Source: Candidatus Latescibacterota bacterium (GTDB lineage Bacteria; Latescibacterota; UBA2968; UBA8231). From it: 47,535 nt of DNA. The stretch covers positions 1 to 47,535 of the forward strand of contig JADZBP010000032.1 of the NCBI GenBank assembly GCA_020852055.1. The letters are read 5' to 3'. Within the stretch, counting starts at the first letter, position 1. Each line of letters starts with the position of its first letter. Of this stretch, positions 30,142 through 46,124 are shown piece after piece. Under the pieces are notes generated by a model that made no database searches, was not told the origin of the DNA, and saw only the letters and a program-made list of their open reading frames with translations. A program made the translations under genes and the position numbers.

Positions 30142-30179
30142 AAGCTCGCGTGATCAAACGGCGGGGAGATGACCCCGGA

Positions 30180-30283
30180 GATCTTTCCCTGGGGAGTGGT
30201 TGGGTTGGGAAGGACGCGGGTGGAGGGGAAGGGAGAGCGGAGCGAAGCGAGCAGAGCGGCAAGTCCGCGCCTTGGGAAAGATC
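30180..30283 (+). repeat. Structured intergenic repeat, family 2, short copy
   Basis: The 104-base element starts GATCTTTCCCTGGGG and ends CCTTGGGAAAGATC; the outer ten bases pair perfectly. Inside are a GA-rich strand and the block GCAGAGCGGCAAGTCCGCG. A second copy lies at 45900-46067 on the other strand, with the outer pair changed to GATGTTTCCC/GGGAAACATC. It lies 40 bases before the GT2 gene, in the sense direction. It has no gene. Confidence 0.8.
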
Positions 30284-30322
30284 GAAGTGGGTCGCTCCCC
30301 GACGCGTTAACCAAGACTATCG

Positions 30323-39408: not shown

Positions 39409-40725
39409 TCAGTGGCTTGGGCCCAGGGTGCGGGCGCTCAGTTCAAAGGGGGCGGCGCCGGTGATCTCCACCTCGGCGAAGCGCCCCACCTCGGCCGGGC
39501 CCGCGATGGACACCTGGCCGTCGATCTCGGGGGCATCCCGCTGCATGCGGCCCAGGTGCAAGCCCTCGGGGGTGCGTTCGTCCACCAGTGCTAGCTGGCG
39601 GCTGCCCACCAGCTGGTGGTTCAGGTCGCCGGAGATGCGCTCCTGCAGCTCGGTGAGGCGGCGGTAGCGCTCGGCCTTGATCTGCTCGTCCACCTCGCCG
39701 TCCAGCCCGTGGGCCGAGGTGCCCTCCTCGGGCGAGTAGATGAAGGCGGTGGCGTAGTCGAAGCGGGTCGCTTCGACGAATTCGAGCAACTCCTCGAACT
39801 CCGCCTCGCTCTCCCCCGGAAAACCGACGATGAAGGAGGAGCGCAGCCCCACGCCGGGGATGCGCCCGCGCAGTTCGGCCAGGAGGTCGAGGGTCTTCTG
39901 GCGGGTGGTGGCCCGCTTCATGCGCTTCAGCACCGGGTCGGCGATATGCTGCAGGGGCATGTCGATGTACTTGCAGACCTTGGGGTGATCGGCGAAGAGG
40001 GCGATCATCGCCTCGGTCCAGAAGGCCGGATAGGTGTACATCAGCCGCAGCCATTCGATGCCCTCGATGGCGCCCAGTTGTTCCATCAGCGGCACCAGCC
40101 GGGCCTGCCCGTAGAGGTCGGCCCCGTAGCGCACCGAGTCCTGGGAGATCAGCACCAGTTCGCGTACCCCGCCTCCGGCCAGGCGCCGGGCTTCCTCCAC
40201 CAGTTTCTCCACGGGCTCGCTGTGGTGTTTGCCGCGGATGCCGGGGATGGCGCAGAAGGCGCACTGGTGGTCGCAGCCATCGGAGATGCGCAGGTAGGCC
40301 CAGTGGCGCGGGGTCAACTGCAGGCGGGGGCCGCTGGTGATATAGGCGGCGCGGGTCTTGCCCAGGGCGCGGTCCACGTGGGCGGCGATATTGACTTCCT
40401 CGGCCAAAGGCAGGATCTGATCGGCCTCGGGCAGCTCGATCTGCAGCTCCTCCTGGTAGCGCTGGGCCAGGCAGCCGGTGGCGATCACCGCCTGGACGCG
40501 GCCCTCCGCCTTGAGGCGGTTGGCTTCGAGGATGGCCTGGATGGACTCTTCCTTGGCCGGGCCGATGAAGCCGCAGGTGTTGACCACCACCACGTCGGCC
40601 TGATGCGGATCGTCGGTCAGTTCGTAGCCGTTGCCCTGGAGCAGGCCGCTCATCTGCTCCGAATCCACCAGGTTCTTGGGGCAACCCAGATTGACCAGGT
40701 GGACCTTGTGGCGTTTAACGTCCAT
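39409..40725 (-). CDS. rimO: Ribosomal protein S12 methylthiotransferase
   Basis: The 438-residue enzyme adds a methylthio group to an Asp of ribosomal protein S12. The N-terminal UPF0004 domain binds one cluster through C15 (LGCPKN), C51 (NTCGF) and C85 (TGCLAQRY). The radical SAM cluster is C151-x3-C155-x2-C158 (CDHQCAFC). A TRAM domain ends the protein. These motifs, especially LGCPKNLVDSE, mark RimO and not MiaB. The start codon at 40723-40725 lies inside the outer arm of a structured repeat (40721-40733), and no clear Shine-Dalgarno sequence is seen. Confidence 0.95.
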   Translation of the reverse strand: MDVKRHKVHLVNLGCPKNLVDSEQMSGLLQGNGYELTDDPHQADVVVVNTCGFIGPAKEESIQAILEANRLKAEGRVQAVIATGCLAQRYQEELQIELPEADQILPLAEEVNIAAHVDRALGKTRAAYITSGPRLQLTPRHWAYLRISDGCDHQCAFCAIPGIRGKHHSEPVEKLVEEARRLAGGGVRELVLISQDSVRYGADLYGQARLVPLMEQLGAIEGIEWLRLMYTYPAFWTEAMIALFADHPKVCKYIDMPLQHIADPVLKRMKRATTRQKTLDLLAELRGRIPGVGLRSSFIVGFPGESEAEFEELLEFVEATRFDYATAFIYSPEEGTSAHGLDGEVDEQIKAERYRRLTELQERISGDLNHQLVGSRQLALVDERTPEGLHLGRMQRDAPEIDGQVSIAGPAEVGRFAEVEITGAAPFELSARTLGPSH

Positions 40726-40880
40726 ACGGAAATCCCAATTTGGGCTGCGCCCGGCTGCAAGCGGCGCGGTCGGCGTTGTCCTCAGTCGGCAGATCGTCCT
40801 TTGTCAGATATGCCTCCTTCGGACGCCTGGCCCACGCCGCTTTCGCTCGGGCTCGCCGACAAAGCGCATTTCCGTATGGA
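40721..40880. repeat. Structured intergenic repeat, family 1, copy A
   Basis: The 160-base element has perfect 13-bp inverted ends (TCCATACGGAAAT at 40721-40733 and its complement at 40868-40880). Inner pairs are GCCCG/CGGGC and AGCGGCG/CGCCGCT, and then an inner hairpin GGCAGAT/ATATGCC with one mismatch. The core (CGCCCGGCTGCAAGC near the left, CGCCGCTTTCGCTCGGGC near the right) is shared with copy B. It fills the gap between the 140-residue orphan gene and rimO. Confidence 0.85.
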
Positions 40881-40901
40881 CTCTTGGTTGGGGAACCGGG
40901 C

Positions 40902-41324
40902 TCAGGCATCACCGGCCCTGGCTCTCAGTGCGGCGCCCAATTCCACCAGGTACTCCTTCCACGCTTCGTACCCTTCCTCCCCTTCGGCCTCCATGGCCAG
41001 GTCCAGCTCCGAGCCTTCCTGGCCCAGCTTGACCACGGCCTTGGCCGCCGCCCGGTAGTCCTCGGGGGCGTAGCTGAACTTCCATTTGCTCCAGGCCGCC
41101 TCCGCCTCGTCGGGGATCTCGCCGATGCCCTGGCCGCCGGCGCGCAACATCAACTCGGAGGCGACCAGCGCCATCTCGCACACGTCGGCATCGACGAAGA
41201 CGCCGGGGGTCAGGTCGATATTGAGGTACTTGAGCACCCCCTCCTTGGCGCGCAGGGTATCCAATTCCTCGACGAAACACTCGTACGCACTCTTGAAGAA
41301 ATCTTCCTCGTCCATTTCTGCCAT
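40902..41324 (-). CDS. Hypothetical protein (140 residues) between two family 1 repeats
   Basis: An acidic, helix-rich, 140-residue soluble protein without signal or membrane helices. Seen features are an N-terminal MAEMDEEDFF, a middle 'GVFVDADVCEMALVASELMLRAGG' and a closing 'YEAWKEYLVELGAAL'. The arrangement of a late-start catalytic-looking region is absent and I recognise no family; it has a loose likeness to small DUF4259-type immunity-like proteins, but this is weak. It lies between aroB and rimO, on their strand, with a structured repeat on each side in the same orientation. Confidence 0.7.
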   Translation of the reverse strand: MAEMDEEDFFKSAYECFVEELDTLRAKEGVLKYLNIDLTPGVFVDADVCEMALVASELMLRAGGQGIGEIPDEAEAAWSKWKFSYAPEDYRAAAKAVVKLGQEGSELDLAMEAEGEEGYEAWKEYLVELGAALRARAGDA

Positions 41325-41343
41325 GGCCTGTTCCTCGCGGATT

Positions 41344-41509
41344 AGGGTCTGTCTGAAAACTCCATTCTGGCGTCGCCCGGCTGCAAGCGACGCGGATCTA
41401 CGTTGCCCTCATTCGGCGTATTTCTGGGTCAATACGCCTACTTCGGGCGCCTTGCCCGCGCCGCTTTCGCTCGGGCTTGGGCCTATAAGCGACTTCTCAG
41501 ACAGACCCT
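41344..41509. repeat. Structured intergenic repeat, family 1, copy B
   Basis: The 166-base element has 15-bp inverted ends with one mismatch (AGGGTCTGTCTGAAA at 41344-41358; complement at 41495-41509). Inside pair GCCCG/CGGGC, AAGCGACGCGG/CCGCGCCGCTT (10 of 11) and a perfect inner hairpin GGCGTATT/AATACGCC. Its right end touches the aroB stop at 41510. The outer arms share no sequence with those of copy A. Confidence 0.85.
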
Positions 41510-42607
41510 TTAGGGGTGCCGGCGCTGGATGTACTCGACGGCGGCGCGCACCTCGGTATCGCTGATGCCATCGACGATCTCCACCTGGCCGAGGCGCCGG
41601 GCCAGCACAAAGCGGTGCCTGCCCTCCAGGCGTTTCTTGTCGGCGCGGGTGCGCTCGACGATGAGGTCGGCGCCCAGGCGGCTCAGGCCCGGGGGCATGC
41701 CCAGCCGCACCAACAACTGGTCCTGGCGGGTGCGCTCGGCCTCGGGCCACATGCCGCGCTGCACGGCCAGTTCGCCGGCCCCGACCATGCCCAGGATCAC
41801 CGCCTCGCCGTGCAGGTACCCGTACTGGCTGGCCGACTCGATGGCGTGGCCGATGGTGTGGCCGTAGTTGAGGATGGCCCGCAGCTCGCTCTCCTTCTCG
41901 TCGGCGGCCACCACCTCGGCCTTGATGCGGGCGTTGGCGGCGATCAGTCCGTCGAGCTGGTCGGGGTCCAGTTCCATGCCGGCGATCTGTTCGATATGGT
42001 GTTCGAGAAACTCGAAGAGGGCCGGGTCGCGGATGACGGCGTGTTTGACCACCTCGGCCATGCCCGCCACCAGCTCGCGGCGGGGCAGGGTGCGCAGCAG
42101 CGCCGTGTCGATACAGACCAGGCGGGGCTGGTGGAAGGCGCCGATCATGTTCTTGCCCAGGGCGTGGTTGACCCCGGTCTTGCCGCCGATGCTGGCGTCC
42201 ACCTGCGAGACGATGGTGGTGGGCACCTGCACAAAAGGGATGCCGCGCAGGAAGGTGGCGGCGACAAAGCCGGCCAGGTCCCCCACCACCCCGCCGCCCA
42301 GGGCCAGGACCCAGGCCCTGCGGTCGAGGCCGGCCTGGATCAGTTGCCCAAAGATCTGCTCGGCGGTGCGCAGGTTCTTGGCGCTGTCGGTGCCGGCGAA
42401 GCGCACCTCGGTGACCTCGAAGCCGGCCTCGCGCAGGCCGGCTGCCGCCGGCTCCAGGTGCAGCCCGGCCACGGTGTGATCGGTGATCAGCGCCACCTGC
42501 CGGCCCAGGCCGGCGGCCCGGCACAACCCTCCCAGGCGCGCCAGCACCCCGTGCCCTACATGGATGGTGTAGGGATGGGGCTCAAGGGTCACGTCGATGG
42601 TCTGCAT
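41510..42607 (-). CDS. aroB: 3-dehydroquinate synthase
   Basis: The 365-residue enzyme turns DAHP into 3-dehydroquinate, step two of the shikimate pathway. NAD binding is marked by LALGGGVVGDLAGFVAATFLRG near 95-116. The active-site and Zn ligands are in SQVDASIGGKTGVNH near 133-147, GMAEVVKHAVI near 182, NYGHTIGHAIE near 247 and LHGEAV near 264. Its start lies inside the end of aroK (26-base overlap), so the two are coupled. The stop is directly followed by repeat copy B. Confidence 0.96.
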   Translation of the reverse strand: MQTIDVTLEPHPYTIHVGHGVLARLGGLCRAAGLGRQVALITDHTVAGLHLEPAAAGLREAGFEVTEVRFAGTDSAKNLRTAEQIFGQLIQAGLDRRAWVLALGGGVVGDLAGFVAATFLRGIPFVQVPTTIVSQVDASIGGKTGVNHALGKNMIGAFHQPRLVCIDTALLRTLPRRELVAGMAEVVKHAVIRDPALFEFLEHHIEQIAGMELDPDQLDGLIAANARIKAEVVAADEKESELRAILNYGHTIGHAIESASQYGYLHGEAVILGMVGAGELAVQRGMWPEAERTRQDQLLVRLGMPPGLSRLGADLIVERTRADKKRLEGRHRFVLARRLGQVEIVDGISDTEVRAAVEYIQRRHP

Positions 42608-45814: not shown

Positions 45815-45899
45815 GGGGAGTGATCTCCAAGAAAGGGTGATGTTAAAGGCTGATGGGGTACTGGCGTGTAGGAGGTGGTCGGATCGGAAACGCCCTTCC

Positions 45900-46067
45900 G
45901 ATGTTTCCCAAGGCGCGGACTTGCCGCTCTGCTCGCTCCGCTCGACTGCCCACCACCACACCCCTGCAACACCATCTCTATGGTGTTGCCCCCGCTCGCT
46001 CCGACTCCGCTCTCCCCTCATCCCGACCCGCGTCCTTCCCTTCCCTACCGCTCCCCAGGGAAACATC
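45900..46067 (-). repeat. Structured intergenic repeat, family 2, long copy
   Basis: Read on the minus strand, the 168-base element starts GATGTTTCCCTGGGG and ends CCTTGGGAAACATC. It shares the GA-rich strand and the GCAGAGCGGCAAGTCCGCG block with the copy at 30180-30283, but has about 64 extra bases in the middle. It lies in the 310-base gap 45815-46124, in the sense direction of both flanking genes. A 7-bp hairpin (ATCGGAA/TTCCGAT) sits just beside it at about 45882-45902. The gap has no gene. Confidence 0.8.
45966..45989. other. Perfect 10-bp hairpin inside the long family 2 repeat
   Basis: GCAACACCAT and ATGGTGTTGC pair perfectly around a four-base loop. The hairpin belongs to the part of the element that the short copy lacks, so it was either inserted here or lost there. 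Confidence 0.85.
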
Positions 46068-46124
46068 TCCAGGGCATTCCCGACCCTCCGGGGGGCTCAG
46101 CGCCATTCAGTGGGCGGCCAATGC

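Follow-up and report, generated by a model that had tools for sequence, protein, structure and literature searches.

A MITE with IS5-type ends around a conserved, strand-specific folded core in Latescibacterota

What keeps the two arms of a repeat paired when the arms of its sister copy have a different sequence? The question is raised by a 47,535-nucleotide stretch of a Candidatus Latescibacterota genome (the window), where two repeats, A and B, lie in the same orientation approximately 625 bp apart beside a rimO-like gene and aroB (Table 1). They share direct-repeat blocks of 46 nt at 89% identity and 41 nt at 80%, and each contains inverted arms (A 40720-40769/40832-40881; B 41344-41362/41491-41509) of which the outermost 13-14 bp are perfectly complementary inside each copy (GTCCATACGGAAAT in A, AGGGTCTGTCTGA in B) and apparently unrelated in sequence between the two. 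The original prediction had described two copies with common core blocks in one orientation, self-complementary outer arms that differ between them, and a compensatory change in the inner hairpin. All of this is seen in the sequence: both copies match a covariance model, and the hairpin reads GGCAGAT/ATATGCC in A and GGCGTATT/AATACGCC in B. The span proposed for the feature, 40721-41509, does hold the two copies but also encloses an unrelated 140-aa reading frame. This frame has no Pfam match; the genomes G001 and G004 have orthologous DNA (79-80% identity) between their aroB and rimO genes, without the elements.

Table 1. Features of the locus, in positions of the window. Copies A and B are both in the training set of the covariance model, and their scores are therefore not independent.
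Feature	Position	Strand	Remarks
Copy A	40717..40884	minus (structured strand)	Covariance model 150 bits, E 7e-35; member of the blast family
Copy B	41344..41509	minus (structured strand)	Covariance model 175 bits, E 6e-41
Terminal inverted repeat of A, left, GTCCATACGGAAAT	40720..40733		Contains the rimO start codon (CAT 40723-40725)
Terminal inverted repeat of A, right, ATTTCCGTATGGAC	40868..40881		Inverted-repeat arms
Terminal inverted repeat of B, left, AGGGTCTGTCTGAAAACTC	41344..41362		14/18 to the IS5_3 terminal repeat AGAAGCTGTCTGAAAACC
Terminal inverted repeat of B, right	41491..41509		Inverted-repeat arms
TTA, left target-site copy of B	41342..41344		Empty site of G001 and G004 as reference
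TTA, right target-site copy of B	41510..41512		Complement of the aroB stop codon TAA; extra T at 41509 adjoins
aroB, 3-dehydroquinate synthase	41510..42607	minus	Pfam PF01761, PF24621; stop codon is the target of B
140-aa reading frame between A and B	40902..41324	minus	Unrelated to the repeats
rimO-like gene	39409..40725	minus	UPF0004, radical SAM, and TRAM domains; ATG inside the terminal repeat of A

The element is a MITE, recognized by terminal inverted repeats, target duplications of the form TNA, and empty sites. Across 111 copies it measures 155-204 bp, no transposase gene or conserved reading frame was noticed, and the terminal inverted repeats are 18-19 bp long and nearly perfect in most. 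The duplication was tested on the 69 copies with TNA on both sides, leaving out contig-end flanks of genome G044: 59 of them share the same TNA, where 22.7 would be expected from base frequencies, and the duplicated words are TAA (26), TTA (22), TCA (6), and TGA (5). Many contigs of G044 (C12, C94, C203, C163, and others) carry the same 75 bp beyond the element at their ends, which is probably an assembly artefact at the repeat. At the locus itself, the sites of A and B are both empty in the close relatives G001 and G004, with gene order unchanged. The aroB stop region of these relatives reads ggcTTAggggtgcc, and B sits in this stop codon, flanked by TTA on each side with one extra T. Copy A, at the start of rimO, has no recognizable TNA duplication, and the rimO ATG in use lies within its terminal repeat; the rimO N-terminus differs in G001 and G004 (MTQTK.., read from the DNA).

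These features bear out the proposal of a non-autonomous, MITE-like hairpin element and contradict its alternative, a REP-like one, as the inverted repeats are long and of DDE type and the target is duplicated. REPINs are mobile hairpins with compensatory stem changes (PMC3116915), and as extragenic hairpins in many copies they do resemble the element. They are, however, moved by RAYT transposases of IS200/IS605 descent, insert without duplicating their target, and end in short REP sequences of a different type, much smaller in their conserved part, whereas here TNA duplications accompany ends of the IS5 type. That the element is a repeat of the REP/REPIN type, mobilized by a RAYT transposase, is hardly credible.

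The family extends well beyond this locus. With copy A as query, blastn returns 16 full-length copies in its own genome (5.63 Mb in 333 contigs, 92% complete, 7% contamination), and a covariance model built from 38 copies finds 27 matches there and 26 in G003, far more than chance would give. Scanned over 64 genomes of the phylum, several of them fragmented MAGs, the model detects the family in 19, and three genomes of family f4 have at least 45 copies each. Copies also occur in all four other genomes of the genus and in G025, from another family, and end counts alone (97 forward, 103 reverse) give approximately 100 copies in G041. A scan of bacterial species genomes with the core led to the records JACPJE (Candidatus Latescibacterota), VGJS (Candidatus Handelsmanbacteria), and CAMAVQ, which coincide with G003, G002, and G004, respectively. 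CAMAVQ is titled Gemmatimonas phototrophica and falls in the genus of the window genome, so the public name of this MAG is probably wrong. Rfam returned only noise at gathering and permissive thresholds, with neither copy matched; distant blastn against plasmids and phages and a motif pattern run on viral contigs gave no match, and the 11 viral hits of a looser pattern, having neither similar folding nor a model match, were discarded as chance. Our literature search found no description of the family in Latescibacterota.

Several variants were seen. Half-sites with a single end turned out to be decayed copies. Derivatives of 47-82 bp keep both ends and have lost the core (G000 C129:43670-43751, G003 C135:3452-3533, and G003 C69:14793-14839), as would be expected from deletion in a palindrome. 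Some copies (L008 1193-1396, L070 1319-1518, L205, L206, and L214) have an extra internal hairpin near the tip of the rod, containing ..CCCAACTCCAAGAGTTGGGC.. in most; their ends differ, and the hairpin may be a module passed among subtypes. L070 1319-1686 consists of two copies back to back with different end types, one of which seems to have found its TTA target in the end of its neighbor. In family f4, distant relatives (L197 1889-2050, L119 222-376, and L192 604-765, the last apparently nested in another such element) have ends like CAGTCCGTTGARAAAG and the motif GGCAAGGCGC..GA / GCAACGC, and the family may be part of a wider superfamily.

The source of the differing arms is found in insertion sequences. 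Genome G003 has an IS5-family element (266 aa; NCBIfam NF033580, Pfam DUF4096 and DDE_Tnp_1) with ends AGAGTCCCTAACAAAATGAG and TTA on both sides, and the closed genome G018 has IS5_3 elements with two types of end, AGAGCCTATACGAAAATT and AGAAGC[TC]GTCTGAAAAC, and identical TNA flanks. MITE copies can be assigned to each type: L002 agrees at 16 of 18 positions with the first G018 type, L159 and copy B agree with the second at 17 and 14 of 18, and L204 agrees at 16 of 18 with the G003 type. The ends of copy A are intermediate, at 14 of 18 to two types, AGAGCCTATACGAAAATT being one. A judgement that the G003 candidate had unlike ends was overturned when the MITE subtype with the same ends appeared. 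In total, 97 of the 111 copies match one of the three IS5_3 end types at 14 or more of 18 positions, against 2 of 20,000 shuffled ends.

Judged by this similarity, the outer arms are terminal repeats that belong to different insertion sequences of the IS5 type. They do differ between A and B, as had been claimed, but they are not the unrelated, random sequence that they appeared to be. One transposase must match both ends of an element, so pairing of the arms within a copy is expected without any folding, and the argument that differing but pairing arms reveal selection for a fold fails on this point. The window's own genome yielded a truncated IS5_3 gene and no intact IS5_3 element, and no IS5_3 transposase scored above the cut-off in family f4 or G025, despite their numerous copies, in a search where such repeats are often lost in assembly gaps. 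Autonomous IS5_3 elements with matching ends and the same target duplication are present in G018 and G003, and we infer from them that the element is mobilized in trans by IS5_3 transposases. Its terminal-repeat types and 3-bp TNA duplications are those of IS5_3 insertion sequences (NF033580; DUF4096 and DDE_Tnp_1), from which it differs in lacking a transposase gene and in having a structured core not seen in them.

Core and ends have diverged to different degrees. Within the genus, mean identity is 79% in the core and 60% in the ends, and the ends lie at least 15 points below the core in 507 of 780 copy pairs, with the reverse in 2. An extreme pair, L015 and L031, is 94% identical in the core and 33% in the ends. 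Such divergence looks like replacement of both ends rather than slow drift, for which arm-to-arm copying within the palindrome would be a plausible route.

Evidence for a fold comes from the core. RNAalifold, run on the window minus strand with 38 copies, gives 50 pairs, of which 33 have double changes that keep the pair; a second alignment, covering four families, has them in 34 of 47 pairs. In the further copies 97.3% of alignment cells are paired, compared with 34-44% when partners are slid by 1-3 columns. Pairing is thus retained beyond A and B and covariation is plain in both alignments, as selection for a fold had led one to expect. On one strand the core forms a rod with asymmetric internal loops (GCGA/GCAGCC and CAAGGC/CAACGC), and these four motifs, unpaired or flanking loops, are nearly invariant across the four families.

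Could an ordinary IS5-derived MITE give the same picture, with transposase-matched ends, stems corrected from arm to arm, and a fold without function? Such an element fully accounts for the pairing of the ends and for the lack of any orientation preference among copies. Many double changes are of the transversion type (28 of 69 in the genus, 34 of 94 overall), the outcome expected of templated correction, and some of the compensation could have arisen without selection, by copying of one arm onto the other. The loops, however, are asymmetric between the arms, so that they would not have survived mere copying between arms, and they are the best conserved positions across four families. Arm-to-arm copying is also strand-neutral and predicts equal numbers of G.U and A.C pairs; in simulation, neutral palindromes yield 1:1 whether or not arms are copied. 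With pairs chosen by a strand-symmetric score, which treats G.U and A.C alike to avoid favoring G.U, changes from Watson-Crick to G.U versus A.C on the structured strand number 44:6 in f4, 38:18 in the genus, and 10:6 in G025, where the bias taken alone is not significant. The pooled count of 92:30 has p ~2e-8 if events are independent, a value to be read as approximate, the events being counted by parsimony on trees of 165-nt sequences in which sister copies are not independent. Single-site spectra lend no support to strand-biased mutation as the origin of this excess of wobbles: C to U does not consistently exceed G to A, nor does A to G exceed U to C. We consider an ordinary MITE with a functionless fold unlikely.

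Folding energy was dropped as proof of the strand. Of 111 copies, 110 have the lower energy on the structured strand, but a G-rich repeat family unrelated to the element is one-sided too (30 of 30 copies sampled), and the measure is therefore confounded by base composition. This second palindromic family, which contains ..GATCTTTCCC...GGGAAAGATC.. and a G-rich strand, occurs in the window at 30170-30290 (+) and 45899-46074 (-) and reaches about 40 copies or more per genome in G000, G002, and G003; its one-strand folding may be due to base composition. For the element, stem covariation, conserved loops, and strand specificity, the marks of a structured RNA, are all found in the core, which is more than a passive palindrome and, as had been proposed on other grounds, is probably selected for its fold.

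Whether the fold serves a neighboring gene can be asked of the insertion sites. Were it a regulatory RNA or a terminator that the host had domesticated in 3' untranslated regions, it would be selected through its neighbors, and the locus offers some encouragement: the folded strand is the sense strand of both aroB and rimO, from whose transcripts, in the original prediction, a structured RNA might be expressed, and a terminal repeat supplies the rimO start codon. Among the 111 copies, moreover, 45 gene ends lie exactly at the junction with a stop codon. These junctions are explained by the TNA target, since each of the four duplicated words is a stop codon on one of the two strands. With surrounding genes predicted by a simple codon score, the structured strand is sense in 28 co-directional gene pairs and antisense in 27, and stop-codon junctions divide 25 versus 20 by orientation; the insertions are also patchy, with sites empty in sister species. 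Because there is no orientation bias, a role of the element in host mRNA is unlikely, and a domesticated host RNA is very improbable.

The folded strand may be RNA or DNA. A single-stranded DNA hairpin formed in replication or excision, as with REPINs or integron attC sites, would tolerate G.T wobbles too, and compensatory changes occur in REPIN hairpins (PMC3116915). A strand-specific fold without gene orientation bias, moreover, is as compatible with replication as with transcription. Duplications of 3 bp together with long inverted repeats, in contrast, suggest double-strand DDE transposition, and the unpaired columns hold 860 A and 272 U. Conserved A-rich unpaired bases are more typical of structured RNA, and a DNA hairpin seems to us improbable.

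Taken as a whole, the observations are best explained by a MITE with IS5 ends around a core that acts as a folded single strand for its own spread or survival, an explanation in which we have considerable confidence. IS5_3 transposases would act in trans on the ends. Around one core, the end pairs of different IS5 elements have been exchanged, and across four families the stems of this core vary by compensated changes while its loops hold. The folded strand would more likely be RNA, made by read-through, than DNA, and it would serve the element rather than a neighboring host gene. Comparison of the sequences suggests a functional structured RNA that is conserved across a class of uncultured Latescibacterota and is carried by a parasite-like element. 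That this class-wide mobile RNA is a selfish cassette, its fold needed for propagation and its IS5 ends repeatedly swapped so as to use several transposase lineages in turn, is a more tentative step, to which we give somewhat less than an even chance.

The intergenic palindromic repeats ERIC, Correia/NEMIS, and RUP, which are 100-150 bp long and lie in transcribed regions, differ from the element, by description, in ends and hosts. Chunjie of Geobacter uraniireducens (Chen et al. 2008, via PMC10969869) is a MITE of 178-235 bp that inserts in an operon without ending it. It is likewise small and non-coding, with terminal repeats, direct repeats, and a stable fold, and in a comparison by description differs in that PMC10969869 gives no strand-specific covariation or end exchange. 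In Coxiella burnetii, transcripts of the MITEs QMITE1 and QMITE2 form strong folds and yield small RNAs (PMC5896051). Both MITEs resemble the element in this folding and in inserting near stop codons; they are confined to one species, QMITE2 has direct repeats of 7-9 bp (PMC10969869), and PMC5896051 contains no covariation analysis. What is new here is that an old core, conserved in its loops and strand-specific in its fold, is combined with IS5 ends that can be exchanged, and this throughout a class.

Bacterial MITEs are usually regarded as inert remnants that deletion has left of insertion sequences. In this MITE the interior predates the ends and is the better conserved part; it folds on one strand, and its transposase partners have changed. 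If this is true, a small element that cannot move by itself can nevertheless carry an RNA or DNA structure under selection, with the ends of insertion sequences as exchangeable vehicles for it. Some caution follows for the reading of other repeats, as pairing outer arms may mean transposase ends rather than RNA folding, and a wobble count against a strand-symmetric set of pairs provides a simple means to discriminate between the two. For Latescibacterota, the genomes would gain an annotated repeat family, present in dozens of copies and providing start and stop codons for neighboring genes.
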